The position numbers were made by a program, and so were the translations under genes. The notes beneath the pieces are model-generated. The model had not been told where the DNA came from and did no database searches. It was given only the letters and a program-made list of their open reading frames with translations. Shown here one piece after another: positions 1-35,956 of a DNA stretch of 35,956 bases (its first letter is position 1; every line of letters begins with the position of its first letter). The stretch covers positions 1 through 35,956 of IMG/VR virus record IMGVR_UViG_3300045936_000063. The stretch is one strand, 5' to 3'. The DNA comes from a virus.

Positions 1-120
1 GGCATCAGCGGCATTTCCCTATGTCACCATCGGGCCGGTCGACAGCGTCGACGACACGGCCGACTGCATCGCCGGCCTGCTGGTGGCGCAGCAGATCGAT
101 TGCTGGTCGCGCGGCGTCGG
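1..120 (+). repeat. Left exact end-repeat, identical to 33972-34091
   Basis: All 120 bases recur without a mismatch at 33972-34091, after which the copies diverge at once (A at 121, C at 34092). The repeat lies inside the tail terminator gene. With the matching 121-bp repeat at 2151-2271 and 35836-35956 it brackets two alleles of the same ~2 kb segment. The near-equal repeat lengths at both window ends look like the overlap of an assembly graph, an inference rather than a biological repeat. Confidence 0.85.
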
Positions 121-307
121 ATATCCGGAAGTCAAGAAGATGGTTGATGACGTGCGGGCAGCACTCCACGACCGCGAGGCCGAGATGCCTCTGGCTACCA
201 ACGGCATGGCCTATTTCGAGCACCGCAATTCCCGCATTACCCGCGACCCGGACGGCCTGACGAGTCACGGCATTCTTTCGTTCGAAGCGGCGATAGAGAG
301 GCGCTAG
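1..307 (+). CDS. Tail terminator protein (DUF3168-like), 5' truncated, allele A
   Basis: This is the C-terminal ~100 residues of a protein whose complete homologue lies at 33868-34278. The reading frame is open from base 2 and matches that homologue almost residue for residue (FPYVTIGPV, CWSRGVGYPEVKK, AYFEHRNSRI, SHGILSFEA). DUF3168-type proteins form the ring that ends tail-tube polymerisation and joins tail to head. The position directly before the tail tube gene fits that role. Its stop codon overlaps the stop of the convergent HNH gene within a CTAG. The start lies outside the window; nothing suggests the gene itself is broken. Confidence 0.85.
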   Translation, partial: ASAAFPYVTIGPVDSVDDTADCIAGLLVAQQIDCWSRGVGYPEVKKMVDDVRAALHDREAEMPLATNGMAYFEHRNSRITRDPDGLTSHGILSFEAAIERR

Positions 308-999
308 AGCAGATGAGTACGCTTCGCCGACTTCCGAACGTTCGCCAGCTTCCAAAGCGGCCGCAGGTTGGTCAGCGCCCAGCATGCGCGAAATTCGGCG
401 TCATCAGGCGAGGAGTAGGTGAAGGCGGACTTTGGCACGATGTGGTCGATCTGCCAGTCTTTCATATTGTCCCAGGTCATACCTGGCAGAAATTGCCGGC
501 CAATGTGCATACGCAGGTCGGCCGCACCATAGCCTGCAAAACGTTCGACGGCTTTGCCGGTGCCGCGCTTGGTCGACATGCGGATGAGTGTCATCATTGC
601 ATTATCCAATCGGCCGCGAGGCAATGCCTGTCGTTTTGCGCTTCGCAATCGTCCATAGGCAACCTTCCACGCGATGCGGGTCGGCCTTTTGTTACGCCGC
701 TCTTCCCGCGCCTTCACGGTTTCAGGATTGCGCTTAACCCAGGCTTTGATCGTCTCTTTTCGACGCTCGCTCGCACAAGCTTCACAATAGAAATGTTTGG
801 ATCGGCTGCGTCGCGCGGTCGGTTTACCACAGCGTTCGCATGCGATCTGGTCACCGAGCTTTGGCAGGCCGCGCTCGGCGCGCTTGCGATGGTGTTCCTG
901 CAATTCAAACGCGCGACGGCATTCTGCGCTGCAGTATTTCGACGGACCATGCCGCCGTTTCTCGAACTCTTTCCCGCAAATAACGCAACGCACCAGCAT
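304..999 (-). CDS. HNH homing-type endonuclease with two zinc-finger-like Cys clusters (allele A, full length)
   Basis: This 231-residue protein is encoded antisense to the tail operon. Two four-cysteine clusters lie near the N-terminus (C5, C8, C23, C27 and C54, C57, C72, C75) and are probably zinc-binding. An HNH nuclease core lies near the C-terminus: DHIVP at 185-189 with later asparagines (NLRPLW at 211, N220). Free-standing HNH nucleases of this kind are typically intergenic homing endonucleases. The gene fills the space between tail terminator and tail tube and shares a convergent stop overlap with the former. The other allele carries a version at 34275-34703 with the same Cys clusters but no HNH core. 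I am confident of the nuclease family; homing activity is inferred. Confidence 0.85.
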   Translation of the reverse strand: MLVRCVICGKEFEKRRHGPSKYCSAECRRAFELQEHHRKRAERGLPKLGDQIACERCGKPTARRSRSKHFYCEACASERRKETIKAWVKRNPETVKAREERRNKRPTRIAWKVAYGRLRSAKRQALPRGRLDNAMMTLIRMSTKRGTGKAVERFAGYGAADLRMHIGRQFLPGMTWDNMKDWQIDHIVPKSAFTYSSPDDAEFRACWALTNLRPLWKLANVRKSAKRTHLL

Positions 1000-1029
1000 G
1001 GTGCAATTCTAGCAAAATAGGAGGCTACC

Positions 1030-1476
1030 TTGCAACCATCAACCGCAAAATTCGGCAACATGCTGATCGAAATTGGCGACGATGCCGTGCCGCCGGTTTA
1101 TGCCGCGCCGTGCGGCTTCACCAGCAAAGGCATCACCCTGTCCAAGAACCTGTCGGAGGTGAATATCCCCGACTGCGACAATCCCGACGACCCGATCTGG
1201 GTCGGCCGCGATGTCACCAGCCAGTCGGCGACGATCACCGGCGAAGGCGTGGCAGCCGGCGAGTCTCTCCCGGACTGGAACGACGCATTCATGTCGACCG
1301 ATCCGGTGCCGATGCGGGTGACGGTCGAATATGACGGCGTCGGCACCAAGGTTTACGAGGGCAAGTTCCACGTCGACTCGGAGGCGATCACGGTGGAGGC
1401 CGGCGGCCGCGTCAACCTGGCGATCAACGCGACTTCGGACGGCGCCATCACCTCGACCTGGACGGCGAGCCCATGA
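1030..1476 (+). CDS. Major tail tube protein (allele A)
   Basis: This 148-residue protein is probably the subunit of the tail tube. The start is TTG at 1030, chosen because AGGAGG at 1019-1024 is well spaced before it and because the allele-B homologue starts with ATG at the equivalent place (34721). The two alleles share blocks such as MLIEIGD, VPPVY, DNPDDPIWVGRDV and GKFHVDSEA. Size, position between terminator and chaperone, and the acidic beta-rich sequence fit siphovirus tube proteins of the lambda V/GTA type. The next gene overlaps it by ATGA. The family call comes from context plus sequence character. Confidence 0.75.
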   Translation: MQPSTAKFGNMLIEIGDDAVPPVYAAPCGFTSKGITLSKNLSEVNIPDCDNPDDPIWVGRDVTSQSATITGEGVAAGESLPDWNDAFMSTDPVPMRVTVEYDGVGTKVYEGKFHVDSEAITVEAGGRVNLAINATSDGAITSTWTASP

Positions 1477-1895
1477 GCCGATCGGCACAGCTCGCTGCCG
1501 AATTCGGCGGCGAGGAACGGCTGTTCCGGCTCGCCTGGGGCGAGCTGATCGAGCTGCAGGAAAAGCGTGATGCCGGGCCGGCGGTCGTGCTGGCGAGGCT
1601 GTCGCTCGGCCAGTGGCATCTGCAGGACGTCACCGAGACGATCCGGCTTGGCCTGATCGGCGGCGGCATGGAACCGGCGGCCGCGGCCAGGCTGGTGCGC
1701 CAGCACGTCGAGCAGAAACCATGGGATCTCGGTGGCGAGAACGGGCTGGTCGTGCTCGCGGTCAAGATACTGGCGGCGGCGACACACGGCGTCGAGGATG
1801 AACCGTTGGGAAAATCAAAGCCGGATCGGAGCGAGTCGACGATCTCCCCAACGGCAAAATCCGATTCGGTCCCGTCCTCGGCACTGCTGTCCTGA
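1473..1895 (+). CDS. Tail assembly chaperone, GTA gp10-like (lambda G equivalent), allele A
   Basis: This 140-residue protein contains a GTA-type chaperone region: FRLAWGELIELQEKRDAGP and a long helical stretch with LSLGQWHLQDV and IRLGLIGGGM. Such chaperones coat the tape measure protein before tube assembly. The start overlaps the tail tube stop by ATGA, so translation is probably coupled. A G GGA AAA slippery heptamer sits in frame at 1808-1814, about 27 codons before the stop. The zero-frame sequence beyond it is low-complexity and differs between the two alleles, while the -1 frame is conserved. The gene therefore probably makes both this short form and a ~220-residue frameshift product. 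Confidence 0.82.
   Translation: MSRSAQLAAEFGGEERLFRLAWGELIELQEKRDAGPAVVLARLSLGQWHLQDVTETIRLGLIGGGMEPAAAARLVRQHVEQKPWDLGGENGLVVLAVKILAAATHGVEDEPLGKSKPDRSESTISPTAKSDSVPSSALLS
1808..1814 (+). promoter_or_regulatory. Programmed -1 ribosomal frameshift site (G GGA AAA)
   Basis: GGGAAAA is positioned so the zero-frame codons are GGA AAA, the canonical X XXY YYZ arrangement. After a -1 slip the frame stays open from 1814 to the stop at 2134 and reads into the downstream chaperone frame without interruption. The same heptamer in the same phase occurs at 35502-35508 in the other allele. Lambda uses a closely similar site for its G/GT tail chaperones. Confidence 0.85.
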
Positions 1896-2134
1896 TGGGC
1901 ATTTCGCCGGCAGAGGCGAAACGCATGTCGATGTGGGAGTTGGCGGCGGTTACCGAACGCTGGATCGAGGCGCACGACACCGAAAGCCACCGCGGCAACC
2001 GGCTGAACGAAGAGGACAAGGACGAACTCTGGAAGTGGATGCAGACCAAGAATCGGCCGCTGACGCTGAAAGAGGCGAGGAAGAAAGCCAATGGTGCAAG
2101 GCCTGGACAAACTGAAACGCCGGCTGGTCGATGA
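1895..2134 (+). CDS. Second tail chaperone segment (lambda T equivalent), expressed by -1 frameshift, allele A
   Basis: The 79-residue segment from ATG 1895 (MSMWELAAVTERW, DELWKWMQ) resembles the second half of GTA/HK97-type tail chaperones. The ATG overlaps the upstream stop as TGATG, but no Shine-Dalgarno sequence precedes it. The same frame is open back to the slippery site at 1808. The upstream stretch contains SERVDDLPNGKIRFG, a peptide shared with allele B in this frame only. I infer that the true product is a G-T fusion of about 220 residues from 1473 to 2134, with independent initiation at 1895 minor or absent. The 3' end overlaps the start of the next gene. Confidence 0.75.
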   Translation: MGISPAEAKRMSMWELAAVTERWIEAHDTESHRGNRLNEEDKDELWKWMQTKNRPLTLKEARKKANGARPGQTETPAGR

Positions 2135-2477
2135 GATGCCGAAGCGCGTGCGCGCCGAAATGGAACGCGCCATGCTGGAATCGGCCGAGCTGATCGTGCG
2201 CGGCGCTCAGATGCGGGTGCCGGTCGACGAGGGCGAGGTGCGCGATTCCATCCGCCATCACGGCGTCAAGGAAGGCAAGCGCGGTGGGCTTTATGTCGCG
2301 ATTACCGCCGGCGACAAGTCGACCGAGAACGACGGCTATCAGGTCGCCCGGCTGCTCGAGTTCGGCACGATGAAGATGGCGGCCCAGCCGTACCTCAAGC
2401 CCTCTTACAGAGCAAACCGGAGGAGGGCTCAAAGAAGGATGCGGCAGGCAGCTAAGCAGGCAATTCTGAAGGGCTAG
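2091..2477 (+). CDS. HK97 gp10-like tail protein, allele A
   Basis: This 128-residue protein matches the HK97 gp10 family: N-terminal DKLKRRLVDEMPKRVRAEM, central RMPVDEGEVR-like element (MRVPVDEGEVRDSIRHH) and a C-terminal FGT...PYLKPS motif. Members are head-tail or tail-completion proteins encoded among tail genes. The start is preceded by GAGGAAG at 2077-2083 and overlaps the chaperone frame. Bases 2151-2271 are identical to the last 121 bases of the window, where the second copy is cut. The tail of the gene overlaps the end of the antisense HNH gene by 26 bases. Confidence 0.85.
   Translation: MVQGLDKLKRRLVDEMPKRVRAEMERAMLESAELIVRGAQMRVPVDEGEVRDSIRHHGVKEGKRGGLYVAITAGDKSTENDGYQVARLLEFGTMKMAAQPYLKPSYRANRRRAQRRMRQAAKQAILKG
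2151..2271 (+). repeat. Right exact anchor repeat, identical to 35836-35956
   Basis: These 121 bases inside the gp10-like gene recur exactly as the last 121 bases of the window; the base before each copy differs (G at 2150, C at 35835). Together with 1-120 this marks where the two allelic copies of the tail segment rejoin a shared sequence. Confidence 0.85.
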
Positions 2478-3219
2478 TCTTATGAACTTTTGGGCGTTGA
2501 TTGTGTCTTTGTACTCGGTAGGTCGCCCAGCGGCAATTGTCGGGCTCATATCCGCGATCATTGTCTTTGCGATCTATAGTCAGATCATCACGATATCCGT
2601 TGGCGACCGCCCAATCGCGAAATGGCTCGAAGTCCTCCCACTCAGAGCAAACGCTAATGCCGCGCGCACCGTAATACGGCCACGAGATGGCCTTCGGATT
2701 CGTGCATCGGGTCTTCATGCCAGTCCAGATGCGATAGAGACGTGGCGGCGTTTCGCCGAAAGCGGTCAAGCCATGCGTCGTAGCCTTGCTGCGAAGCTTT
2801 TCGAGTTTCAGGCATCCGCACGATTTCGAAACGCCTTTTCGCAGTCTCACTCCGGTGGCAGTGCAGGAATTTCCGCAGTCGCACTGGCAGTCCCAGAAAA
2901 CAGTGCGACTGCCATCCTTGCGCAGGGATCGGCCTACCACAGTAAGCCGGCCGAAACGCTGTCCGGTGGCATCAATCAGGTTGTCTTTTCCGATAGATCT
3001 GATCGACCGACTGGAGCATCCGCACGATCTAGGTCCAAGCTTTGCGCGCAAAGCGTTTCCGCTGGTGATCTTCTCATTGCCGCAGTCGCAAATACACAAC
3101 CAAGCCGGCTCCGGACGTTTGCCGACCGTCCATCCATGCCTTGCGACGACGCGCAAATCACCGAAGCGACGTCCGACAAGATCGTGAGTTCTCGCTTGGT
3201 TGCTAGCAGCTATCGACAT
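2452..3219 (-). CDS. Antisense HNH/AP2-type homing endonuclease-like protein
   Basis: This 255-residue protein is encoded opposite to the tail operon. It has two N-terminal Cys-rich repeats (GRRFGDLRVV with CICDCGN and SCGC; GQRFGRLTVVG with CQCDCGN and SCGCL). The C-terminal half, with LYRIWTGMKTRC, YYGARGISVC and LTIDRKDNDRGYEPDNCRW, is typical of phage HNH-like proteins that carry AP2-like DNA-binding repeats. It lies between the gp10-like gene and the tape measure. In that space related phages usually have little or nothing, which suggests insertion of a selfish element. The ATG at 3219 gives the complete first repeat. Family call is good; activity is inferred. Confidence 0.78.
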   Translation of the reverse strand: MSIAASNQARTHDLVGRRFGDLRVVARHGWTVGKRPEPAWLCICDCGNEKITSGNALRAKLGPRSCGCSSRSIRSIGKDNLIDATGQRFGRLTVVGRSLRKDGSRTVFWDCQCDCGNSCTATGVRLRKGVSKSCGCLKLEKLRSKATTHGLTAFGETPPRLYRIWTGMKTRCTNPKAISWPYYGARGISVCSEWEDFEPFRDWAVANGYRDDLTIDRKDNDRGYEPDNCRWATYRVQRHNQRPKVHKTSPSELPA

Positions 3220-3270: not shown

Positions 3271-5691
3271 ATGGCCGCGGATGACGCAGCAGTCGTCGTA
3301 ACGCTCAGGGCGAACCTCAAGGACTATGAGGCGGCGTTGAAATCGGCAGTGCGCATGGCCGAGCGCGCCGCCAAGGCTGCCGAGGATGCTGTCGGCAATG
3401 TCGGTAAGGGCGGCAAGGGCGGTGGCACCAATGCCATCAACGACAACTTCCGCAAGTCGGCGAACCAGATCGCCAACGACGCGCGCATGCTGCAGTTCCA
3501 GTTGAATGACATCTTTTCCGGCATCGCGTCCGGCCAGGGCATCCGCGCCGTACAGCAGCAGCTTGGCCAGATCGCGCAGCAGCTCGGCGGCGGCGGATTG
3601 GCGCAGGGCGCTCGCACGCTTGGCTCGGCGATGGTCGCTATGGTCAACCCGATCAACTTGGCGGTGGTCGCGTTTGGCATACTGGCCACGGTGGCAGCCA
3701 GCTATTTCTTCGAGTCGGAGGACAGCGCGAAAAAGACGACCGACGCAATTCGCAAACAGGCCGACGCCGCCAAGAAGCTCGCCGACGCCTGGGGTGACAT
3801 GATCCCTGGCCTGCGCCAGATCGCCAGCGAGGCCGAGGCCATCGTCAAGCAGATGGAATTGCTGGAAGCCGCTGGCCTTGTCGTCGACAAGCGCATGACG
3901 AAGGTCAACGAGCGGTTCGCCGATCTCGCCGACAAGTTCCCGTCCGATGCCAGCTATGCCTTCCGCACCGCGCTGGAAGAAGTCGATACCGCCGCCGACA
4001 AGATGTTCAAGACCATCGAGGACGGTGGCGACGACACGGATGCCTTCAACAAGTTTCAGAGTGAGATGGCAGACATCTTGCTGTCCGAGGGCGTGAAGGC
4101 GAACAAGGCGCTGGAAGCCGCGCTGCTCGATCTGCTCAAGACCTACCAGGATCTCCGCAAGGCGGCCAAGGAATTCCGCGAGGAAGCCGAGACGCAGATC
4201 AATCCGCCGGCTGTCGGTCCCGGTCGCGGCGGCGATCCGATGCCGGCCTATCGGCGCCACGGGGCTGAACTGGATGCAGCACTTGGCAACGCCGCTAACG
4301 CCATCGACAGTTTTGTCGAGCGGGTGATCCAGGCTGAAAGCGGCGGCAGCGCAACGGCCAAGAATCCGCTGTCGAGCGCGACCGGCGCCGGCCAGTTCAT
4401 TTCCTCGACCTGGCTGGAGGTGTTCAAGCGCAACTTTGCCGCCGAGGCGGCAGGGATGTCCGATGCCGCCATCCTGGAGCTGCGTACCGATGTCGAGACG
4501 AACCGGCGCATGATCCGCGCCTATGCGACGGAGAATGCCCAGCTGCTGCTGCAGGCTGGCCAGGAGGTGAATGAGGCGGCATTGCAGTTGGCGCACTTCC
4601 TTGGTGCCGGCGGCGCGATCAAGGTACTGCAGGCCGCGCCTGGCACGAAGATCGCAAACATTCCGGGCATGTCGGCAGCGATCGCCGCGAACCCGTCGAT
4701 CCTTGGCGGCGGCGCGACGCGCGAGGATGTCCTGGCTTACGCCGGGCGGCGTGCCGGGGCATCGACGACACCGAAACTGTCCGAGCAGGAGCGTGCGCTT
4801 AAGAACCTGCAGGAGTGGAACGTCGCGTCGGCCGAGCGTGTCAGGATTGAGAAAGAAGTATCCAACATCAATGCGCAGGTATGGCTGACCGAGTCTGAGC
4901 GCACCGCACAGGTCGAGGCGCTGCGCATTGCCGAAGAGGAACTGTTTCGGCTACGCCAGGCCGGCGTTCCTGTCACCGCCGAAATGGAGCGGCAGATCCG
5001 GGCGACGGCGCAGGCGACGGCCGAGGCGACACTCAAAAGCCAGCAAGCCGCCGAATTGCAAAAGCAGTTCGTCGAGAACCAGAAAAATGCGGCGGCCGAA
5101 TTGGCGCAGATCAACCAGCAGTTCGCCGGCATCATCGGCGGTGGGCTATCTGGCTTCATCAATGACCTGATCGCCGGCAAGGACGCCGGCGATGCCTTCG
5201 CCTCGATGCTGCAGCGCATCACCTCGCAGCTGGTCGACATGATGGTGCAGCTGTTGATCATCAAGCCGTTGATGACGGCGCTCGGCGGCGGAATCGGCGG
5301 CGGCAGCATCCTTGGCTTCGAGGGCGGCGGCACGGTCGGGCTTTCCGGCCAGCCAGCAGGCAAGCGGCCAGCGGCGCTTTGGGCCAATGCGCCGCGTTAT
5401 GCAGCCGGCGGCATGGTCGGGCTGAAGCCAGGCGAGGTGCCGATCATTGCGCACCGCGGCGAGATCATCGTGCCGAACGCCAGGCGGCTGGCATCCTCGA
5501 CCGGCGGCGGCAAGGTCGACAACTCGGTGCATCAGCAGAACAAGATCTCCATCGACATGTCGGGATCCGGCTATGTCGCCGCTAACTCCAAATCCGCCAA
5601 GCAAGTCGGCGAGAACATCCAGAAGCTTATTCAGGCGGAGCTGGTGCGCGAAAGCCGGCCGGGCGGGCTGCTCAGAAAGGTGCCGGGCTGA
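3271..5691 (+). CDS. Tail tape measure protein with lytic transglycosylase domain
   Basis: This 806-residue protein sets tail length; at about 1.5 angstrom per residue it predicts a tail near 120 nm. Order: helical, Ala-rich N-terminus; hydrophobic segment at ~121-149 (VVAFGILATVAASYFF); helical region; SLT-type transglycosylase segment at ~345-480 starting FVERVIQAESGG with the catalytic-type Glu, then GAGQF; a coiled coil at ~505-620; a hydrophobic stretch at ~645-685 (MVQLLIIKPLMTALGGG); and a C-terminal GEVPIIAHRGEIIVPNA motif common in tape measures. The transglycosylase probably opens peptidoglycan during DNA entry. A 51-base leader separates it from the antisense HNH gene. Confidence 0.9.
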   Translation: MAADDAAVVVTLRANLKDYEAALKSAVRMAERAAKAAEDAVGNVGKGGKGGGTNAINDNFRKSANQIANDARMLQFQLNDIFSGIASGQGIRAVQQQLGQIAQQLGGGGLAQGARTLGSAMVAMVNPINLAVVAFGILATVAASYFFESEDSAKKTTDAIRKQADAAKKLADAWGDMIPGLRQIASEAEAIVKQMELLEAAGLVVDKRMTKVNERFADLADKFPSDASYAFRTALEEVDTAADKMFKTIEDGGDDTDAFNKFQSEMADILLSEGVKANKALEAALLDLLKTYQDLRKAAKEFREEAETQINPPAVGPGRGGDPMPAYRRHGAELDAALGNAANAIDSFVERVIQAESGGSATAKNPLSSATGAGQFISSTWLEVFKRNFAAEAAGMSDAAILELRTDVETNRRMIRAYATENAQLLLQAGQEVNEAALQLAHFLGAGGAIKVLQAAPGTKIANIPGMSAAIAANPSILGGGATREDVLAYAGRRAGASTTPKLSEQERALKNLQEWNVASAERVRIEKEVSNINAQVWLTESERTAQVEALRIAEEELFRLRQAGVPVTAEMERQIRATAQATAEATLKSQQAAELQKQFVENQKNAAAELAQINQQFAGIIGGGLSGFINDLIAGKDAGDAFASMLQRITSQLVDMMVQLLIIKPLMTALGGGIGGGSILGFEGGGTVGLSGQPAGKRPAALWANAPRYAAGGMVGLKPGEVPIIAHRGEIIVPNARRLASSTGGGKVDNSVHQQNKISIDMSGSGYVAANSKSAKQVGENIQKLIQAELVRESRPGGLLRKVPG

Positions 5692-13580: not shown

Positions 13581-13841
13581 TTTCGTGTAAGTTCCGTGTA
13601 ACTTTTTGCCGCCAATCGTCCCTTTTGGGCGGGAATGATCCGCTTCTGTTCTTTTCGGACGACAGGGCCGCGTCAAGCCTAAGCCTTGAAAATACAAAGG
13701 TATTTTGGCTGTCCTGCGGCCGTGCCTCATAAATGCCATTCGGATGTGGGGATCGTAAGGGCATCTCAGCGATAATGCTTTTGTTTCAATCGCTTGCCGC
13801 CTTGTCGGCGGCTTCCGTGTAACTTTCCGTGTAACTTTTTG
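13581..13841. other. Candidate attP: paired arm-type repeats flanking a core inverted repeat
   Basis: The 17-bp sequence TTCCGTGTAACTTTTTG occurs at 13592-13608 and 13825-13841. Each copy has a tandem partner just upstream: a diverged one at 13581 (TTTCGTGTAAG) and an exact TTCCGTGTAACT at 13813-13824. Two spaced pairs of short direct repeats next to a tyrosine integrase gene are what arm-type integrase sites look like. Between them, AAAATAC (13689-13695) and GTATTTT (13700-13706) form an inverted repeat with a 4-base spacer, a plausible core. The right pair lies in the 3' end of the integrase gene and encodes its SYTESYTE tail. No host sequence is available to confirm the crossover point. 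Confidence 0.6.
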
Positions 13842-14946
13842 CGCCGCGCTCGGCCGCTTCCAGGGCGCCGGCAATGTCTTCCTGCTGCACATGGGCATAG
13901 CGAAGCGTCGTCTCGTAGCGGCTGTGGCCGAGCGTGCGCTGCACGACTTTCAGGTTGGTATTGCGCGCCATCCTGGTTGCTGCCGTGTGGCGCATGTCGT
14001 GCAGGCGGAAGTTCTCGACGCCTGCCGCCGCAACCGCCCGCTTCACCGCCGAGGCAAAACCTTCCATCGTCAGCGGGTAATGCTCGCCCTTGACGTATTG
14101 GATGCCGTTCTTGCCCGTCCTGGTGTAGGCGGATGCGAAGGTGAAGACGTTGACCTTGTGCCTGCCCAGCTGGCGGCGCAGCAACTCGCGGACATAAGGC
14201 GTCATCGGCAAGGTGCGCGATTTGTCGCCTTTGCCGTCGAGCGTGAACTCGCCTTTGCCGTCGCGGGCGAACCAGTTGATCTTTGACCAGGCCAGCCCGA
14301 CTACCTCCATCTTGCGGGCGCCGGTCTTGAAGGCGAAGTCGACGGCGTCGCCATAGCCGCGGTCGAGGCGGTCGTTGATCGCCGCCTCTTCCTCGACGGT
14401 CGCCTCGCGGACCCGTTCTTGCGGTTCCTTCAGCATGAACTGCGACCACTTGATCCTGGCGACCCGGACGTTCCAGCGTTCGCGCGCCGTGACGATGATG
14501 GTGCGCAGCGGCTGGACCGCCGTGCGGTTGACCGTCGAATTGCTGATACGGACCTGGCGGTCTTTCTTGTTGCGCTGACTTGCCTCGCCTCGCCGCGCCG
14601 CCACCATGTGGGCGATCCGGCTCGGCGTGATGTCGTGCAGCATGATGGTCGTGCCGAACTGTTTCAGCAGCCATTTGAGGTTCTTGCGGCAGCGGTCGTG
14701 GTCTTTGCGGAACTGCCCGACTTCGTTCCACCAGCGGGCGCAGGCAAGCTCGAACGTCAGTTCCGGCTCGAACATCGCGGCATCCTGCGCGACCAACTCC
14801 CGCGCTTCGGCCCGCTTTGCGGCCTCTACTTGTTCGGCTTCCCGCCTGTTGGTCCTGCCAGTGTTTCCCGAAAAAGTGCGACCACCGAGGTTGAACCGGA
14901 AGGAATACGTCCCGTCTTTCGTATCCGGGCGGATAGTGACTGACAT
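13786..14946 (-). CDS. int: Tyrosine integrase
   Basis: This 386-residue site-specific recombinase has an arm-binding N-terminus (YSFRFNLGGRTFSGNTG, TNRREAEQ), a core-binding domain at ~65-175 and a complete catalytic set: R211 (TGARKMEV), K242, H316 and R319 (LHDMRHTAATRM), H341 and nucleophile Y350 (LGHSRYETTLRY). It integrates and excises the phage. It is the last gene of the leftward group, next to the candidate attP. The upstream HTH gene overlaps its start by ~120 bases out of frame. The C-terminus contains a small tandem repeat encoded by the arm-type DNA repeats. Confidence 0.93.
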   Translation of the reverse strand: MSVTIRPDTKDGTYSFRFNLGGRTFSGNTGRTNRREAEQVEAAKRAEARELVAQDAAMFEPELTFELACARWWNEVGQFRKDHDRCRKNLKWLLKQFGTTIMLHDITPSRIAHMVAARRGEASQRNKKDRQVRISNSTVNRTAVQPLRTIIVTARERWNVRVARIKWSQFMLKEPQERVREATVEEEAAINDRLDRGYGDAVDFAFKTGARKMEVVGLAWSKINWFARDGKGEFTLDGKGDKSRTLPMTPYVRELLRRQLGRHKVNVFTFASAYTRTGKNGIQYVKGEHYPLTMEGFASAVKRAVAAAGVENFRLHDMRHTAATRMARNTNLKVVQRTLGHSRYETTLRYAHVQQEDIAGALEAAERGAKSYTESYTEAADKAASD

Positions 14947-15801: not shown

Positions 15802-16800
15802 TCATTCCTCCTTGAGCAACGCCAGGTATTTCTGCGCGGCCGCCTTCGGCAGTTCCTTCCTGGCTACCTTGGCCGCTGTTTCCAGCACGGTGTCGATGAA
15901 GGCGTCGGCGCCGGGCAGATCCTCGAGGAGATCCCTGCGCAGGAAATCCAGCTCGACGAGGCGAGCGTCGACTTCAAGGTCGCCGCGGCCGGCGATCTGC
16001 AGGGCGTCATGGATGGCCTGGTCGCGCGCGTCGGATGGGGCGGCAGCGGCGAGTGGATCAGCTTGGGGGTGAGGCTCGCCGCTGCCTGCGCCGGCTGGTG
16101 ACTGAGGGGGATCGGCCGGCGTTTCAGGGGAAGGTCTGCCTTGTAGCACGGCGCCGGCTTCGGCGGCAGCGGCAAAATCATCTAGCGACCGCGGCGCCGC
16201 CGGTTTTTCTTCCTTCGGCGAGATGTCGACCATCGCCGCCTCGCGCATCTCATCGACGTCATGGATGCCGAGAATAACCTCTGGACACCAGCGGCGGGCG
16301 AAGCCGCGCAGGCTGTAATAGGACAGCTGCTGGCCGGGATCCGACTTCCACAGCGGGCTGTTCTTCGGCGAGATGTCGGCAATGCGCGGCGACTTGTATT
16401 CGCGCACGGCACCATCGCGGAAAGTCCCGGTCACGATGGCGCGCATTTCCTGGCCTTCGCCTTCGAACCGGATGTCCGGCCTGGTTTTCAGCGGCGCCAG
16501 CGCATTGACGATCGCCATGAACACCTGTGCCTCGTAGGCCAGCAGATCGTTGACGAAATAGCTTTTCCTGGCCAGCGCATAAGGATTGATGCCGAGCCGG
16601 ATGGAGTCATCGAGAATGCCCAGGCATGCGCCAGGCTGGCCACGCAGATGTTTAGGCACGGCGGATCCGGATGCCGCCATCATCTTGGCGAATTCCATCA
16701 CCTCGCCGGCATTGACGAAATTGATGCCGCCTTTGCCGATCGTGATGGCATCGGCCAGCTCGCGGTTGACCTTGGTTTCAATGAGTGCGGTGTCGGTCAT
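15802..16800 (-). CDS. recT: RecT-family single-strand annealing protein
   Basis: This 332-residue protein resembles phage RecT: KMMAASGSAVPKHLRGQPGACLGILDDSIRLGINPYALARKSYFVND at the N-terminal third (the region that selects substrate in such annealases), then a beta-rich core with FRDGAVREYKSPR and YSLRGFARRWCPEVI. The C-terminal ~130 residues are Pro/Ala-rich followed by a helical tail. RecT anneals complementary strands exposed by the partner exonuclease encoded two genes upstream. Neighbouring genes overlap by ATGA at both ends, so the operon is tightly coupled. Confidence 0.82.
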   Translation of the reverse strand: MTDTALIETKVNRELADAITIGKGGINFVNAGEVMEFAKMMAASGSAVPKHLRGQPGACLGILDDSIRLGINPYALARKSYFVNDLLAYEAQVFMAIVNALAPLKTRPDIRFEGEGQEMRAIVTGTFRDGAVREYKSPRIADISPKNSPLWKSDPGQQLSYYSLRGFARRWCPEVILGIHDVDEMREAAMVDISPKEEKPAAPRSLDDFAAAAEAGAVLQGRPSPETPADPPQSPAGAGSGEPHPQADPLAAAAPSDARDQAIHDALQIAGRGDLEVDARLVELDFLRRDLLEDLPGADAFIDTVLETAAKVARKELPKAAAQKYLALLKEE

Positions 16801-17063
16801 CGGTGTTCCTCTCTCAGTATCTTAAGTCCGGCCTTGGTGATGCGCTCGCCGGCCGATTCCACCTGGTCCCAAAAGCGATCGCCATAACGCGCGCGGGCTT
16901 CATGCCCGGTGATGTATTCGGTGCCGTCGCGATAAATCCACTCGGTCCAACCGGCCTGCATGCAATAGTAGCCAGTTGTGGTGTGGTCGCGTTCCTGCGG
17001 GCCTTCTTCGGCCAGCCGTTCCAGCCATTGCCGCCGCAACCAGGTAAGCCTGATCGGCTTCAT
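16797..17063 (-). CDS. Hypothetical protein between exonuclease and RecT
   Basis: This 88-residue basic protein (TWLRRQWLERLAEEG, YYCMQAGWTEWIYRDG, RITKAGLKILREEHR) overlaps both neighbours by four bases, so it is surely translated with them. I do not recognise a family. The C-terminal ITKAGLKIL resembles a winged-helix strand seen in small phage regulators, which is only a hint. Confidence 0.65.
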   Translation of the reverse strand: MKPIRLTWLRRQWLERLAEEGPQERDHTTTGYYCMQAGWTEWIYRDGTEYITGHEARARYGDRFWDQVESAGERITKAGLKILREEHR

Positions 17064-18046
17064 GCTGCATCCTTTGCCTTTGTCACCTTCAGCACCGGAT
17101 AATCCTTCGCCGCGACCTGGTAGGCATCGCGGTGCGCCATCGTGTGCGAGATCTTCCAGCCGGGCAGCGTGGCCGATTCCGAGCCGTTAAGCTTGTGGAC
17201 GATCTCGGCGTCGATCTCCTTGCATGTGGCTTCATCCTCCTTGATCTCGGCCTTCAGCGCGGCACGCATGGCCAGCATGTCGCCGAGCCGGTTGTCGGTC
17301 GAGAGATCGAGCGGCGCCGGCTTGTCCGGATCCGGCTTGAAGACCTGGCGCAGCACGTCAGCGTCGCGGGCGTAGTCGGGCGCGACCGGCGCGTGGCCGT
17401 CATCGAAGGCAGCCCAAAAGCTGGCGGCGATCGACCGGATGCCGGCTTCCGCACGTTCATTGCGCTCGACCCGGTGGACGACCAGTTCGGCGTCCTGCCA
17501 GCCGAGAACAAGTGCCGCCAGCACGCCATAGTCGGCTTCGAGCAGCATGGCGTTGCCGAGCGTCTGCAGCTGGTAGCCGAGCGGCGGGCCGTTCGACCAG
17601 TTGGCCTCGAAGGACGCGCGGGAAATGACCTTGAACTCGAAGACGATGCGCGCCGCCATGTGCTCGAAGCCGGTGGCATCCGGCGTACCGCCGAGCCGGA
17701 TATCAGGATCCCGCACATAGATGTTGAGCGGATAGTCGATCTGGTATTCCGGGTGCTGTTCCTGCAGCGCGCAGGCGACCGCCGGTTCGGCCCAGCGGCC
17801 GAGCCGCATGGCGGCGTTTTCTTCTGGCGGCGCGGCCAGTCCCATCTTGCGCGCCCATATCTCGTAGGCGGTGGCGTAGGGATCGACGCCGGCCACAGCG
17901 CCAACCTCGCTCATCGTGAGATCCTGGGCGCGCAAGGCGAACCATTCCGGCGTGCGCGGCTTGACAGTGTGGCGCTCGATGATGGCGGGCGCGGGCGCAA
18001 TGCGTTGCGCATGCCCGGCGTGGGGCGTGTTCAGCTGCGGACACAT
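17060..18046 (-). CDS. YqaJ-like (lambda Exo type) recombination exonuclease
   Basis: This 328-residue protein carries the YqaJ/lambda-exo PD-(D/E)XK fold: an early RTPEWFALRA...MSEVGAVAGVDPY block, D123 in GGTPDATG, the E137-x-K139 pair in VFEFKV, and GYQLQ (157-161). It probably degrades one strand of duplex ends so that RecT can anneal. The family is commonly paired with RecT, as here. It is the first gene of an operon driven by the strong leftward promoter at 18090-18117. The C-terminal ~70 residues are helical. Confidence 0.85.
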   Translation of the reverse strand: MCPQLNTPHAGHAQRIAPAPAIIERHTVKPRTPEWFALRAQDLTMSEVGAVAGVDPYATAYEIWARKMGLAAPPEENAAMRLGRWAEPAVACALQEQHPEYQIDYPLNIYVRDPDIRLGGTPDATGFEHMAARIVFEFKVISRASFEANWSNGPPLGYQLQTLGNAMLLEADYGVLAALVLGWQDAELVVHRVERNERAEAGIRSIAASFWAAFDDGHAPVAPDYARDADVLRQVFKPDPDKPAPLDLSTDNRLGDMLAMRAALKAEIKEDEATCKEIDAEIVHKLNGSESATLPGWKISHTMAHRDAYQVAAKDYPVLKVTKAKDAA

Positions 18047-28080: not shown

Positions 28081-28191
28081 ACATTTGTTCGTTGACAATT
28101 TGCAATTTCGCGAGTCCGGGCGTATTTTGCGGCAATTCCGGCGACGGTGGGGCGCAAGCCTGTAAATCCGGCTGAAGGCTTTTTCCTTCGG

Positions 28192-30248: not shown

Positions 30249-30267
30249 GTTGATTGCCCCAACTGAA

Positions 30268-30294: not shown

Positions 30295-30316
30295 CATGCA
30301 AAAGGGAGTCCCCAAT

Positions 30317-30661: not shown

Positions 30662-30668
30662 CGGGCCG

Positions 30669-32120
30669 ATGGCGATGCTGGATCCGGTCCGGCGCGCCTT
30701 GCGCCTGTTCGATCGCCGCTCCATCGAAAGCGGCGATCCAGGCGTCGAGGGCCAACCGAAGACTGGGCCTTGGCATATCCTCAACCAGGGCTGGCTGCCG
30801 GAACCGTGGGGCTTCTGGAATTTCTGGCAGATGGATCTCGATCCGCTCAAGGGCGGATCGTCGCCGGTGGTCGAGGCCTGCATCGCCGCCTATGCGCAGA
30901 CCATCGCCATGTGTCCCGGCGAGCACTGGTGGGCGCTGGAGAACGGCGGCCGCGAACGGATCACGACATCGGCGCTATCGAGGATCCTGAAGCGGCCGAA
31001 CGACTACCAGAGCCGGTCCGATTTTCTGCTCGATCTCGCCAGTGATCTCTATCGCCACGGCAACACCTACGCGCTGGCCACCCGCAACGACCGTTACGAG
31101 GTGACGGCGCTGCATCCGTTCGATCCTGCTCAGTCTCGTCCTGTCGTCGGATCGAACGGGGCGATCTTCTACGAGCTCGCCGGCAATACCGTGCTCGAGG
31201 GTGACCGTTCCTTCCTCGGTCAGCAGCGCAGCCGCGCCGGCATCGTGGCACCGGCCCGCGACGTCCTGCACATCAAGCTCGAGCCGGAAGCATCCGCACC
31301 GCTCACCGGCATTCCGCCATCCAGGCACGCCGCCGCCGCGGTGGCCGCGCAGCGCGCCATCAGCGGCCAATTGATCCAGTCTTTCGGCAATCTGAACCGG
31401 CCGGCTGGCGTCATCGAAACCGAGCAGAACATCTCCCAGGACCAGGCCGCCGGCTGGCGGCAACGGTTCAATGATGCATGGAAGGGCATCGACAATCTCG
31501 CCGCCGGGCCGCCGGTGCTGACCAACGGCTTCAAATGGAAGCCTGTTTCGATGTCGGCCAAGGATTCCGCGCTGACCGAGGCTGCGCGGCTTACCCAGGA
31601 CGAGATCTTCGCGGTCTATGGCGTGCCGCCGGCCATCCTCGGCCTCACCGATCGCTCTTCGTTTTCATCGACCGAGGCGCTGATGCAGTTCTGGCTGGCG
31701 CGCGGGCTCGGCTTCGCCATCAACCACATCGAGGTCGGCCTCGATCATTTCTTCGGCCTCAAGGGCTGGCCGGACGAATGGGTCGAGCTCGACACCAGGG
31801 CGCTGCTGCGCGTCGCCTACAAGGACCGCATCGAGGCGCTGGCGCGCGGCGTCCAGGGCGGCATCTACGCGCCCAACGAGGCGCGCAATTCGGAAGACCT
31901 GCCAGATGCGCCGTTTGGCGACGAGCCGCGCGTGCAACAGCAGGTCGTGCCGCTGTCGGCCTGGGATAAGGCAAAACCGGAAACGCCGCGGCCGGAAGCG
32001 CCGGCAGCGCCGCCGCCGGCGCCCGAAGCGGAAGAGCAGCCCGAAGAGGAGGAAGAAGAACGCGATCTACCGGCGGCCTTCACACGGGGAATCGACGATG
32101 CCAACCGAACAGCGGCTTGA
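30669..32120 (+). CDS. HK97-family portal protein
   Basis: This 483-residue protein starts at ATG 30669. It has the portal signatures of the HK97 family: SPVVEACIAAYAQTIAMCP, YQSRSDFLLDLASDLYRHGNTYAL, DVLHIKLEPEAS, and AVYGVPPAILGLTDRSSFSSTEALMQFW. The C-terminus is a Pro/Glu-rich tail. Twelve copies form the DNA entry ring at one capsid vertex. The gene lies after the capsid rather than before the protease, which is not the usual HK97 order. The last 23 bases overlap the next gene. Confidence 0.92.
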   Translation: MAMLDPVRRALRLFDRRSIESGDPGVEGQPKTGPWHILNQGWLPEPWGFWNFWQMDLDPLKGGSSPVVEACIAAYAQTIAMCPGEHWWALENGGRERITTSALSRILKRPNDYQSRSDFLLDLASDLYRHGNTYALATRNDRYEVTALHPFDPAQSRPVVGSNGAIFYELAGNTVLEGDRSFLGQQRSRAGIVAPARDVLHIKLEPEASAPLTGIPPSRHAAAAVAAQRAISGQLIQSFGNLNRPAGVIETEQNISQDQAAGWRQRFNDAWKGIDNLAAGPPVLTNGFKWKPVSMSAKDSALTEAARLTQDEIFAVYGVPPAILGLTDRSSFSSTEALMQFWLARGLGFAINHIEVGLDHFFGLKGWPDEWVELDTRALLRVAYKDRIEALARGVQGGIYAPNEARNSEDLPDAPFGDEPRVQQQVVPLSAWDKAKPETPRPEAPAAPPPAPEAEEQPEEEEEERDLPAAFTRGIDDANRTAA

Positions 32121-32706
32121 GGATCTCGCCTATACGATCGGCCGCCGCTTTGCCGAGGAACGCGAGCGGCTGCTGGCCGATTTTAACCAGCACAAGATGG
32201 CGCTGCAGCTGGAGGTCGAGCGGGCAATCGGCGTGCTGCGCGATCGCCTGGCCGAACTGAAAGACGGCGAACAGGGACCACGCGGCTTTACAGGCGATTC
32301 CGGCGAGGCCGGGCCGCCGGGACCGCCAGGCGAATCGATCAAAGGGGACGCGGGCGAGCCCGGTACGCCGGGGGAGGCGGGACCGCCAGGACGTGATGGC
32401 CATGACGGTGTGGATGGTGCCACCGGCGAGTTGCGTGGCCTCTACGACAAGGCCGAAGCCTATTGCAAGCTCGACCGGGTGTCGTTCAACGGATCCGAGT
32501 GGATCGCCAGGCAGGACGATCCCGGTCCATTGCCCGGCGACGGCTGGATGCTCGGCGCCCAAGGCAAGCGCGGCAAGCCGGGGATCGGCATCCAGGATGT
32601 TTCGGTGAAGGACTACGCATGCGTGCTAGAGCTCACCAACGGCAAGTCGGTCACCGTCGATCTGCGCAGCATGTTCGAACGCTACGAGCAGGAGCGCGGC
32701 GGATGA
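32098..32706 (+). CDS. Collagen-like phage protein with C-terminal carbohydrate-binding-like module
   Basis: This 202-residue protein has an N-terminal coiled coil (LAYTIGRRFAEERERLLADF), then eight Gly-X-Y triplets, an Ile-Lys break and ten more (GEQGPRGFTGDSG to GATGEL). The C-terminus contains the module AYCKLDRVSFNGSEWIAR, then DPGPLPGDGWMLGAQGKRGKPG, which is found on many phage fibres next to collagen-like tracts. It lies right behind portal, so it may form a short trimeric fibre at the head or head-tail junction, perhaps for host adhesion. Confidence 0.85.
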   Translation: MPTEQRLEDLAYTIGRRFAEERERLLADFNQHKMALQLEVERAIGVLRDRLAELKDGEQGPRGFTGDSGEAGPPGPPGESIKGDAGEPGTPGEAGPPGRDGHDGVDGATGELRGLYDKAEAYCKLDRVSFNGSEWIARQDDPGPLPGDGWMLGAQGKRGKPGIGIQDVSVKDYACVLELTNGKSVTVDLRSMFERYEQERGG

Positions 32707-33245
32707 GCTGGAACCCAACCGTCGACTACACCGCGTTGCCGCTGGCGCTGCTGCCGCTGGTCAAGTTGCATTGCCGCGTCGATTTCCCTGACGACGACGA
32801 GATCATCAAGACCCATACGGCGATAGCCATCGATTACTGCGCGAATTTCTGGAGCTTTCAGATCTTCGGCGCCGAGGGTGCGTGGTCGCCGGATCTGTCG
32901 ACCGGTGCCTCGCGCTACCAGTGCCCGGTGAAGCCGGTCAGCGATTTCACGATCTCGTCCGGCGGCGTCGACGTCAAAGCCGAGTACCAGCTGGAAAGCG
33001 GGGCGATCACCGAGCCGGTCTGGCTGGTCAAGAAGGATGGCACCGCCTTTCCGGCCGATGCGCTGATCACGCTGACGGCAGGATATGCGGAGGCAACCGG
33101 CATGCCGCCGGCAATGCTCGGCGGCATCCTGCGGACTGCCGCGCTTGTTTACGAACACCGCGAAAGTGTCACCGCCTACTCGCTCGACAGCGTGCCGTAC
33201 TGGCTGAACGACATGCTTGGCGGACTGTGGACACCGCGAGCGTAG
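32703..33245 (+). CDS. Head-tail connector, HK97 gp6-like
   Basis: This 180-residue protein starts at ATG 32703, overlapping the collagen-like gene's stop. LLPLVKLHCRVDFPDDDEIIKTHTAIAIDYCANF is the family N-terminus, and the C-terminal GILRTAALVYEHRESVT-YWLNDMLGGLW helix is typical for gp6-like/phage_connect adaptors. They form the ring under the portal. Order portal-connector-joining protein supports the call. Confidence 0.85.
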   Translation: MSWNPTVDYTALPLALLPLVKLHCRVDFPDDDEIIKTHTAIAIDYCANFWSFQIFGAEGAWSPDLSTGASRYQCPVKPVSDFTISSGGVDVKAEYQLESGAITEPVWLVKKDGTAFPADALITLTAGYAEATGMPPAMLGGILRTAALVYEHRESVTAYSLDSVPYWLNDMLGGLWTPRA

Positions 33246-33254
33246 GAGGAGCCT

Positions 33255-33605
33255 ATGCCCGCGAAGTTCGGCGCCGGACAGATGATCGAACTGGTCGCGT
33301 TCGACCAGCGCAAGGATGAAGAGGACGAATATGGGAATGTCATTTCGACCTGGGTCGAGCAGTTCCAGCAGCACGCCAAGTTTATCTATCTGCGCGGATC
33401 GGAAACGGTGATGGCGGCGCGTCTGGAAAGTCAGGAGGCGATGGTCATGCAGGTGCGTCGCTGCGCCGACACGCTGCGGATTGGATCGGCATGGCAGGCT
33501 CGCGATGTGCGCCGCGGTACCGCCTACAACATCCAGGCCGTCGAGGAAGATCGCAGCCGCGCGCTGATTGATCTTCTGGTCGAGGGCGGCGTGGCGACAG
33601 GCTGA
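33255..33605 (+). CDS. Head-tail joining (head closure) protein
   Basis: This 116-residue protein fits the Phage_H_T_join family: MIELVAFDQRKDEEDEYGNVISTWVE is the strand-rich start, then FIYLRGSETVMAARLESQEAMVM and the terminal YNIQAVEEDRSRALIDLLVEGG. Such proteins form the head-closure ring between connector and tail. GGAGGAG lies nine bases before its ATG. Confidence 0.85.
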   Translation: MPAKFGAGQMIELVAFDQRKDEEDEYGNVISTWVEQFQQHAKFIYLRGSETVMAARLESQEAMVMQVRRCADTLRIGSAWQARDVRRGTAYNIQAVEEDRSRALIDLLVEGGVATG

Positions 33606-33868
33606 TGGCGTGTGTCGGATGCCAGCAGCGCCGCGAGGCGATCAAGGCGATGGCCGGCAAAGTCGGCGCCATCGTGTTCGGAGGAAGGAAACGCAAGCTT
33701 GCAGACAGTTTCCTGGTCGATGAAGGCAAGAAAGGCGATCCGGCTGGGCTGGATCCGGCGGCGCCTGATCCCGGCATCGGAGCCGGTGTCGCCGCGCCCG
33801 GTGGTGATGCTGGAGCCGCTGGCGAAGCAGGCACGTCTAGAGGGTCGAATGGCGGGGGCGGCTACTGA
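33605..33868 (+). CDS. Hypothetical Gly-rich small protein
   Basis: This 87-residue protein has an N-terminal CVGCQQRREAIKAM motif with two Cys and a C-terminal Gly/Ala/Pro-rich stretch (DPAAPDPGIGAGVAAPGG) without structure. It overlaps its neighbours at both ends and lies between head-closure and tail terminator genes. No family recognised. Confidence 0.65.
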   Translation: MACVGCQQRREAIKAMAGKVGAIVFGGRKRKLADSFLVDEGKKGDPAGLDPAAPDPGIGAGVAAPGGDAGAAGEAGTSRGSNGGGGY

Positions 33869-34278
33869 TGGCGACGCCTGAACTGGAAATGCAGGGCGCG
33901 ATCGTGGCGCGGCTGAAGGCGGATCCGGCAGTGGCCGCCCTGGTCAATGGCCGGATCTACGACAGCGTGCCGGCATCAGCGGCATTTCCCTATGTCACCA
34001 TCGGGCCGGTCGACAGCGTCGACGACACGGCCGACTGCATCGCCGGCCTGCTGGTGGCGCAGCAGATCGATTGCTGGTCGCGCGGCGTCGGCTATCCCGA
34101 AGTCAAGAAGATCGTCGATGCGGTGCGCGCCGCGCTGCACGACCGCGAGCAGGACATGCCGCTTGCCACCAACGGCATGGCCTATTTCGAGCACCGCAAC
34201 TCTCGCATTGTCCGTGACCCTGACGGCCTCACAAGTCACGGCATCCTGTCGTTCGAGGCCGCCATTGAGCGACGTTAA
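33868..34278 (+). CDS. Tail terminator protein (DUF3168-like), complete copy
   Basis: The full 136-residue form of the protein cut at the window start. It opens with ELEMQGAIVARLKADPAVAALVNGRIYD and continues through PASAAFPYVTIGPVDSV, the family core, to the end shared with the truncated copy. Bases 33972-34091 are identical to 1-120. It caps the tail tube. Its TAA overlaps the stop of the convergent HNH-like gene in GTTAAC. Confidence 0.88.
   Translation: MATPELEMQGAIVARLKADPAVAALVNGRIYDSVPASAAFPYVTIGPVDSVDDTADCIAGLLVAQQIDCWSRGVGYPEVKKIVDAVRAALHDREQDMPLATNGMAYFEHRNSRIVRDPDGLTSHGILSFEAAIERR
33972..34091 (+). repeat. Second copy of the left exact end-repeat
   Basis: Identical to 1-120; after this the two alleles diverge through the rest of the tail terminator, the HNH-like gene, the tail tube and the chaperone. 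See 1-120. Confidence 0.85.
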
Positions 34279-34703
34279 CTGGAGGAATTCAGTTGCAGGC
34301 GAAGTGCTTTTATCCGCTGCCGATGCTGCCGCAAACGGACGGTGTGATAGTCATTGATCTTCTTTCTGCGTTCGGGATCCGCATAGCGCCGATCATCGCA
34401 AACGCGCTGAATTTCGTAGCGCTGGGCAAGATGGTTTGCGCGCCAGGCCTTCCATGTTTCGGCGCGCCTCGCTTTGGCACATGCTTCGCAATAATAGGGC
34501 CGGCTGCGGCTGCGTCTGGCCGTATCCGATCCGCATCGCTCGCACGCTATCTGATCACCGAGTTTAGGCAAGCCGCGCTCGGCGCGCTTGCGGTGGTGTT
34601 CGCGCAACTCGAATACGCGACGGCATTCGCGGCTGCAGTATTTCGACGGACCATGCCGCCGTTTCTCGAACTCTTTCCCGCAAATCACACACGTAACCAG
34701 CAT
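34275..34703 (-). CDS. Truncated HNH-like protein, Cys clusters only (allele B)
   Basis: The 142-residue product is homologous to residues 1-~90 of the protein at 304-999, with all eight cluster cysteines present (C5, C8, C23, C27, C54, C57, C72, C75). It then diverges (KAWRANHLAQRYEIQRVCDDRRY) and ends before any HNH core. It therefore looks like a DNA-binding remnant or a variant without nuclease activity. It occupies exactly the same intergenic slot. Confidence 0.75.
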   Translation of the reverse strand: MLVTCVICGKEFEKRRHGPSKYCSRECRRVFELREHHRKRAERGLPKLGDQIACERCGSDTARRSRSRPYYCEACAKARRAETWKAWRANHLAQRYEIQRVCDDRRYADPERRKKINDYHTVRLRQHRQRIKALRLQLNSSS

Positions 34704-34720
34704 TAGGAAAGGATACTACA

Positions 34721-35170
34721 ATGGCGCAACCTACGACAGCCAAATTCGGAAAGATGCTGATCGAGATCGGCGACAGTGCCGTGCCGCCGGTTTATTCGGC
34801 ACCGTGCGGCTTTACGTCGAAGGGCTGCACGATCTCCAAGAACCTCCAGGAGATCAACATTCCCGATTGCGACAACCCGGATGATCCGATCTGGGTCGGC
34901 CGCGACGTGCAGAGCCAGTCCTGCACCATTACCGGCGACGGCGTGGCAGCGGCCGAGTCAGTTCCTGACTGGGACGATGCCGCCATGTCCACGGACAGCA
35001 TTCCGATGCGTGTGACGATCGACTTCGAGGCGGTCGGATCCAAGGTGATCGAAGGCAAGTTCCACGTCGACAGCGAGGCCTTCGCCGCGGATGCCGGCGG
35101 CCGTGTCACGCTGGCGATCAACGCCACGTCTGACGGGCCTGTGACCGCCACCTGGACGGCCGGACCATGA
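34721..35170 (+). CDS. Major tail tube protein (allele B)
   Basis: The 149-residue homologue of the protein at 1030-1476, starting with ATG. Long blocks are shared and many single residues differ, so this is an orthologous allele, not a copy made recently. AGGAAAGGA precedes the start. Confidence 0.75.
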   Translation: MAQPTTAKFGKMLIEIGDSAVPPVYSAPCGFTSKGCTISKNLQEINIPDCDNPDDPIWVGRDVQSQSCTITGDGVAAAESVPDWDDAAMSTDSIPMRVTIDFEAVGSKVIEGKFHVDSEAFAADAGGRVTLAINATSDGPVTATWTAGP

Positions 35171-35589
35171 GCCGTATCGGTCGCATAACGGCGCTGTTCG
35201 GCGGCGAGGAATGCGACTTCCGGCTGGCATGGGGCGAACTGGTCGAGTTGCAGGAAAAGCGCGATGCCGGGCCTGCTGTAGTGCTCGCCCGCCTGTCGCT
35301 CGGCCAATGGCACCTTCAGGACGTGATCGAGACGATCCGACTCGGCCTGATCGGAGCCGGCATGGATGCCGCACAGGCGGCCAAGCTGGTGCGCACCAAC
35401 GTCGAGCAGAAGCCGTGGGATCTCGGCGGCGAGAACGGGCTTGTTGTCCTGGCGGTCAGGATCCTCGCCGCCGCCACGCACGGCGTCGAGGATGAGCCGG
35501 TGGGAAAAGCGGGGGAGGGTCGGAACGGGTCGACGACCTTCCCAACGGAAAGATCCGTTTCGGAGCCGTCCTTGGCAACGCCGTCCTGA
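35167..35589 (+). CDS. Tail assembly chaperone, GTA gp10-like (allele B)
   Basis: This 140-residue homologue of the protein at 1473-1895 shares the FRLAWGELVELQEKRDAGP, LSLGQWHLQDV and WDLGGENGLVVLAV blocks. Start overlaps the tail tube stop by ATGA. The slippery heptamer is at 35502-35508. The zero-frame tail after it has diverged from allele A, whereas the -1 frame has not. Confidence 0.82.
   Translation: MSRIGRITALFGGEECDFRLAWGELVELQEKRDAGPAVVLARLSLGQWHLQDVIETIRLGLIGAGMDAAQAAKLVRTNVEQKPWDLGGENGLVVLAVRILAAATHGVEDEPVGKAGEGRNGSTTFPTERSVSEPSLATPS
35502..35508 (+). promoter_or_regulatory. Programmed -1 frameshift site (allele B)
   Basis: GGGAAAA with zero-frame codons GGA AAA, at the same codon number (114) as in allele A. 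The -1 frame stays open from 35508 to the stop at 35795, giving a ~209-residue fusion product. Confidence 0.85.
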
Positions 35590-35795
35590 TGGGCATCTCG
35601 CCGAACGACTGGCGCAAGATGAGCATGTGGGAAATGGCTGCGGCGAGCGAGCGGTGGGTCGCGGCGCACGACACCGAAAGCCACGACGACCGCAAGGGCA
35701 AGCTGGACGAGGCCGAGAAGGACGAGATCTGGGCCTGGATGCAACAGAAGGGCGCCACCGGCAGGAAGCGAAGCAATGGTACAGGGACTGGATAA
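35589..35795 (+). CDS. Second tail chaperone segment expressed by frameshift (allele B)
   Basis: The 68-residue segment (MSMWEMAAASERWVAAHDTESHDD) is homologous to 1895-2134 but has a shorter C-terminus. It is open upstream to the slippery site, where it encodes SERVDDLPNGKIRFG as in allele A. Its ATG overlaps the zero-frame stop (TGATG) without a ribosome site, so expression is probably by frameshifting. Confidence 0.75.
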   Translation: MGISPNDWRKMSMWEMAAASERWVAAHDTESHDDRKGKLDEAEKDEIWAWMQQKGATGRKRSNGTGTG

Positions 35796-35956
35796 GGTCA
35801 GGCGGCGGCTGGTCGATGAGATACCCGCGCGTGTCCGCGCCGAAATGGAACGCGCCATGCTGGAATCGGCCGAGCTGATCGTGCGCGGCGCTCAGATGCG
35901 GGTGCCGGTCGACGAGGGCGAGGTGCGCGATTCCATCCGCCATCACGGCGTCAAGG
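35776..35956 (+). CDS. HK97 gp10-like tail protein, 3' truncated (allele B)
   Basis: The first 60 codons of the second copy of the gene at 2091-2477. It starts at ATG 35776 after GGAAGCGAAG, differs from allele A over its first 20 codons, then is identical over the last 121 bases of the window. The break is the window end, not a mutation. Confidence 0.85.
   Translation, partial: MVQGLDKVRRRLVDEIPARVRAEMERAMLESAELIVRGAQMRVPVDEGEVRDSIRHHGVK
35836..35956 (+). repeat. Second copy of the right exact anchor repeat
   Basis: Identical to 2151-2271 over 121 bases and ending exactly at the window end. See 2151-2271. Confidence 0.85.

Follow-up and report, generated by a model that had tools for sequence, protein, structure and literature searches.

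The record IMGVR_UViG_3300045936_000063 raises the question of why a single viral contig should carry two versions of the same tail genes, one at each end. The window analysed here is this entire IMG/VR record, 35,956 bases in length. A first, sequence-only reading had claimed that exact repeats of 120 and 121 bp lie at its ends, and direct sequence matching has confirmed them (Table 1). Inwards, both matches are maximal, as the left one stops where base 121 is A and base 34092 is C, and the right one where bases 2150 and 35835 mismatch, while outwards both extend to the very ends of the record. At ~79% identity, an exact match of 120 bases would arise by chance with a probability of ~0.79^120, or ~5e-13, so the flanks are common to both ends and not a coincidence.

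Between these flanks lie two segments, referred to here as alleles A and B, which align at about 79-90% DNA identity. In both, the C-terminus of the tail terminator is followed by a minus-strand HNH-type gene, the tail tube, the tail assembly chaperone, a small open reading frame, and the start of an HK97-gp10-like gene, and alignment and gene calls thus bear out that homologous but diverged genes are kept in the same order. The length gap of 286 bp is mostly due to the HNH gene (696 vs 429 bp). The tail tubes of A and B are 77% identical in amino acid sequence (dN 0.17, dS 0.94) and the chaperones 76% (dN 0.17, dS 0.57), and the dN/dS ratio rises from ~0.05 in the terminator C-terminus through 0.10 in the HNH1 N-terminus and 0.18 in the tube to 0.29 in the chaperone. 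Purifying selection acts on both alleles, which suggests that A and B are both working tail alleles. In this group, the HK97-gp10-like gene follows the chaperone and precedes the tape measure gene, whereas it lies ahead of the terminator in the more distant relatives L028, L037, L048, L057, and L068, and it has apparently moved within the tail operon.

Table 1 Positions of the shared flanks, the two alleles, and other annotated genes in the 35,956-base window
Feature	Position	Strand	Details
Left common flank, copy 1	1..120	+	In tail terminator gene; exact match to 33972-34091
Left common flank, copy 2	33972..34091	+	Natural position, after head-to-tail genes; L041 and L076 contiguous through it
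Allele A	121..2150	+	2030 bp; also in L025 and L041, and to 1911 in L015
Allele B	34092..35835	+	1744 bp; present in L004/L076 with one SNP
Right common flank after allele A	2151..2271	+	Exact match to 35836-35956
Right common flank after allele B	35836..35956	+	A-type here; 19 differences in the other B contig
Tail terminator, A version	Open frame 2-307		PF11367 family
Tail terminator / tail completion protein, B version	33868..34278	+	136 aa; PF11367, E 1.8e-35; phrog_176
HNH1-A	304..999	-	231 aa; phrog_1035, E 4.8e-8
HNH1-B	34275..34703	-	142 aa; N-terminal 87 residues kept, without HNH core
Major tail tube protein, A version	1030..1476	+	148 aa; PF06199, E 2.1e-17
Major tail tube protein, B version	34721..35170	+	149 aa
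Tail assembly chaperone (GTA-gp10 family), A version	1473..1895	+	PF11836, E 4.6e-20
Tail assembly chaperone, B version	35167..35589	+	
Small ORF after chaperone, A version	1895..2134	+	79 aa; phrog_18467
Small ORF after chaperone, B version	35589..35795	+	68 aa; phrog_18467
HK97-gp10-like gene, across right junction	2091..2477	+	PF04883, E 1.3e-9
HNH2	2452..3219	-	255 aa; free-standing HNH endonuclease; phrog_374, E 3e-78
Tape measure protein	3271..5691	+	Divergence of the 3300045930 B haplotype ends inside, at 3330
Tyrosine integrase	13786..14946	-	PF00589, E 3.2e-27; temperate phage
RecT-family single-strand annealing protein	15802..16800	-	PF03837, E 1.3e-10
YqaJ-type recombination exonuclease	17060..18046	-	PF09588, E 6.8e-7

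The remainder of the window is an ordinary temperate siphophage with an HK97-type head and a lambda-like tail tip. Beyond the genes in Table 1, it encodes an MT-A70 methylase, a portal protein, lambda-like minor tail proteins, and TerL, the latter with an adjoining HNH gene. A 642-aa open frame (28320-30248) joins prohead protease (Peptidase_S78) and major capsid (Phage_capsid) domains, and two open frames with collagen-like G-x-y repeats (24697-25350 and 31906-32706) lie on either side of the head gene block. Named phages matched the DNA only in short stretches of 66-83% identity, and tail tube B, searched against GTDB genome contigs for a host or prophage, had no relative there.

The record is very probably the linearised circular map of one such temperate siphophage, whose population holds two alleles of the tail segment that were joined by the assembler. 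The assembler would have met a two-path bubble and put one path on each end of the common arc; being unable to close the circle, it would thereby have joined A and B in one contig. The evidence comes from independent contigs carrying one allele or the other. Scanning viral contigs with tail tube B gave 27 relatives, and scanning them with a 37-base motif from the flank gave exactly four contigs, namely 3300045944_000130 (L016/L041), 3300045930_000045 (L004/L040/L076), 3300045933_000064 (L025/L069), and 3300045930_000021 (L015), the first three of which are the same or a sibling phage. L041 is identical to the window over 24673-34091, crosses window position 33971 into 33972 (= 1), and runs onward through allele A to 2253 with two differences, at 150 and 2237. 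L076 is identical over 24721-34091 and then carries allele B, with one difference up to 35840, at 34220. L025 is a 26.4-kb contig that begins at window base 4 with allele A and is identical to the window from there to at least 24946, except for base 150 and the stretch 3337-3464. The left flank is identical in L041 and L076, and in L025 and L015 over the bases that they hold.

Since A and B each follow the same flank in separate contigs, they are alternative alleles of one locus, sharing the same left flank, in a circular-mapping temperate phage. Two alternative sequences lie between identical flanks in the window, and each is found alone at the same locus elsewhere, A in L041 and L025 and B in L076. 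Bar the point differences listed above, the circle of 33,971 bp through allele A is tiled by overlapping contigs, and L041 and L025/L069 support a circular map that is free of host DNA. Sample 3300045930 contains both alleles, A in contig 000021 and B in contig 000045. The earlier proposals of a bubble in a circular phage and of a population polymorphic in tail tube and chaperone are hereby supported, and the record is best read as an assembly-graph bubble that arose in a polymorphic population. Base 150 itself is A in the window's allele A and C in three independent A contigs, and the difference corresponds to an Ala-to-Asp change in the terminator.

Two related prophages lying in tandem in one host chromosome, each with one allele, would also be expected to give a contig running from A through common sequence to B, and the phage does encode an integrase. 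Nevertheless, this arrangement, which the sequence-only reading had offered as its alternative, is very unlikely. Neither host DNA nor an attachment-site break was found in the 35,956-base record, and contig 3300045933_000064 had neither over window positions 4-24946. Moreover, contigs from other samples, whether with A or with B, run on through the same flank, the allele B of 3300045930 has a different right boundary, and the record ends precisely where A and B rejoin, which tandem prophages do not predict. A true duplication, with both segments in one phage genome, fits the presence of both copies in the same orientation in one contig, yet it can be rejected as exceedingly improbable, as A and B each stand alone at the single normal locus in L041 and L076. 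The spacing of the segments also equals one whole genome length, and no contig with two terminator-tube blocks was found among the related contigs.

The lengths of the end repeats say less about the assembly. Flanks of 120 and 121 bases do not equal one k-mer length and allow no single k to be deduced, and two other contigs beginning at the locus have 117 and 48 bases ahead of the point where A and B diverge, so the repeat lengths alone are no proof of a k-mer overlap. Near-equal repeats had been taken as a sign of the bubble, and of this argument the bubble itself has stood, whereas the repeat lengths are weak evidence for a k-mer overlap.

The right boundary of allele B probably adds a third haplotype to this picture. 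In 3300045930, allele B remains diverged through the gp10-like gene, has no HNH2, and matches the window again only from 3331, within the tape measure gene, so that this haplotype is a larger replaced block reaching from window 34092 to 3330. In contrast, the window's B turns A-type between 35835 and 35841, where the two parents have only the five bases CGCGC in common, and the other B contig differs from the window's last 121 bases at 19 positions. Most simply, the window's B may be read as a B/A recombinant forming a third haplotype in the window's sample, and this recombinant together with the A haplotype would give a two-path bubble. The B-to-A junction at 35836 is known from the window contig alone, and the sole other B contig having 19 differences across those 121 bases would fit an assembly or PCR chimera, in which true B is as in 3300045930 and the last 121 bases come from A. 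Such a chimera is improbable, since the shared CGCGC is too short to let a de Bruijn assembler join the two sequences, such a join being implausible unless reads support it, and a separate contig, L041, also ends in the right flank with one B-type base (2237), which suggests that real recombinants occur in the right flank. Accordingly, of the two circle lengths proposed earlier, the 33,971 bp for A has held, and the 33,685 bp for B is correct as arithmetic and applies to the recombinant only, because it needs the window's last 121 bases.

What the sequence-only reading did not mention is that the two alleles differ in a gene of homing-endonuclease type, located between the tail terminator and the tail tube in both. 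HNH1-A has zinc-ribbon-like cysteines at its N-terminus and a complete HNH core at its C-terminus (IDHIVP...LTNLRPLW...N), which aligns with proteins of Sinorhizobium phage AP-16-3, Azospirillum phage Cd, and Rhizobium phage 16-3. Residues D185, H186, N211, and N220 are invariant in five aligned proteins; the catalytic core is complete in this alignment, and an AlphaFold model built on a 3-row alignment had a pLDDT <50 over the nuclease part. The N-terminal 87 residues of HNH1-B are 85% identical to those of HNH1-A, and a tblastn search of the B region with HNH1-A recovered only residues 1-87 and no nuclease core, leaving HNH1-B without a complete core. HNH1-B had no match in named phages, and sequence searches of the PDB with HNH1-A and HNH2 found nothing. 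Assignment of HNH1-A to the DHHRN (Endo VII) family of homing endonucleases, defined by a DHDH flanked by CX2-4C and CX2C, was rejected, as it has IDHIVP rather than DHDH and no CX2C following, and it is better called a predicted HNH-type nuclease. Among the 36 contigs having both the terminator and tube genes, the gap between them is <=105 bp in 26 and holds a relative of HNH1 in five, and both occupied and empty HNH1 sites are found among close relatives, with most relatives lacking the gene at this position.

In the window, L025, and L010 (79%), HNH2 stands between the gp10-like gene and the tape measure gene, and it is absent from this site in L076 and L015. Relatives of HNH2 occur elsewhere, within or close to the tail genes, in L005, L014, L015, L018, and L024. 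Codon use at the very end of the gp10-like gene (AGA/AGG, GCA, AAA) sets the two HNH2-bearing lineages (window/L025 and L010) apart from relatives lacking HNH2, and the G+C of 2401-2477 is 0.56 vs 0.65 upstream. It looks as if HNH2 may have come with its own end of the gp10-like gene.

Exchange at this locus extends beyond one phage background. Over ~10.6 kb, L040 and L041 match each other without a difference, and this stretch includes a left arm unlike that of the window. They part only where A and B diverge, so the A/B polymorphism is present in a second phage background. The boundary at 24672/24673 is sharp, with two contigs from different samples being identical to the window rightward and ~83-88% identical leftward. 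L015, which shares its sample (3300045930) with the B contig, is identical to allele A from 73 to 1911 with one difference (150), and its right arm is then ~76% identical. This shared A tract, the left end of which runs off the contig, is consistent with co-conversion. In L025, a diverged patch of 128 bp (3337-3464) at the tape measure N-terminus resembles L015 and is flanked on both sides by thousands of window-identical bases. The picture is one of apparently recent recombination with sharp boundaries, mostly between the tail terminator and the tape measure N-terminus.

How the segment is exchanged may be approached from these gene contents. Ordinary phage mosaicism, probably aided by homing nucleases, is most likely. 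In more specific terms, HNH1 and HNH2 would cut, RecT and YqaJ would repair the break, and the tail genes would travel as co-converted flanks; we give about an even chance to the segment being exchanged through recombination promoted in this way by the homing-type HNH1 and HNH2. Two findings count against homing, namely that the B site already contains a nuclease-less HNH1, and that other mosaic boundaries (24672) are far from HNH1. An HNH1-like occupant in the site would usually block homing insertion. The phage's own RecT and YqaJ, both of which are present, may also suffice for exchange in mixed infection or on prophages, with the HNH genes as passengers, and we place this a little below even. 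Sharp mosaic boundaries away from HNH1 (24672 and the 3337-3464 patch) favor such exchange, whereas HNH1 lies within the hot segment and HNH2 at its border, HNH genes occur at several tail gene borders in relatives, and known islands of homing endonuclease genes (HEGs) act likewise (PMC10448857). To return to the homing nucleases, complete (A) and nuclease-less (B) versions of a putative homing gene, each linked to a terminator, tube, and chaperone allele of its own, segregate in two backgrounds, and it could tentatively be speculated, at somewhat longer odds, that homing is now exchanging virion structural genes in nature.

As a practical consequence, this catalogue record is not one genome, and if it were used as a 36-kb genome, its tail genes would be counted twice. 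The locus is also a small natural example of tail structural genes that have been exchanged between almost identical phages next to endonucleases of homing type, in which complete and nuclease-less copies of a selfish DNA-cutting gene may help spread tail-gene swaps. The complete, core-less, and empty forms of the site allow a direct test of homing and co-conversion.

Taken together, the case illustrates known phenomena well. In assembly graphs, variation between strains opens a branch that later closes again, unitigs are shared among mosaic phage variants, and contigs stopping at short shared end sequences are well described (Phables, PMC10563150; COBRA, PMC10914622). The window resembles these in its rejoining two-path branch and its shared end sequences, although the end overlaps described for COBRA equal maxK or maxK-1 (PMC10914622), and those of the window are 120 and 121.

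With regard to the exchange itself, HEG islands are blocks in which homing endonuclease genes bracket tail and other essential genes and which are near-identical in otherwise diverged phages (PMC10448857), and the locus is likened to them, and to co-conversion, because of its anatomy and the one shared tract. As in these islands, HNH genes lie beside or between the tail genes of the window, the exchanged block is near-identical across diverged genomes, and the HEG content is unstable between related blocks. Unlike them, the present case is small (about 2-3 kb), is a polymorphism within one phage population found in two backgrounds, and includes one allele without the nuclease core. Likewise, co-conversion is established for the free-standing endonucleases of T4 (PMC2988022), and the T-even free-standing homing endonucleases share with this locus an intergenic gene, linked flanking markers, and phage recombination proteins, although the protein family differs and homing is here a prediction from sequence. 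Finally, HNH1-A recalls F-CphI and the DHHRN family (PMC6083498) in matching a PHROG labelled endonuclease VII and in having a DH, and differs from them in its IDHIVP instead of DHDH and in having no CX2C after it.
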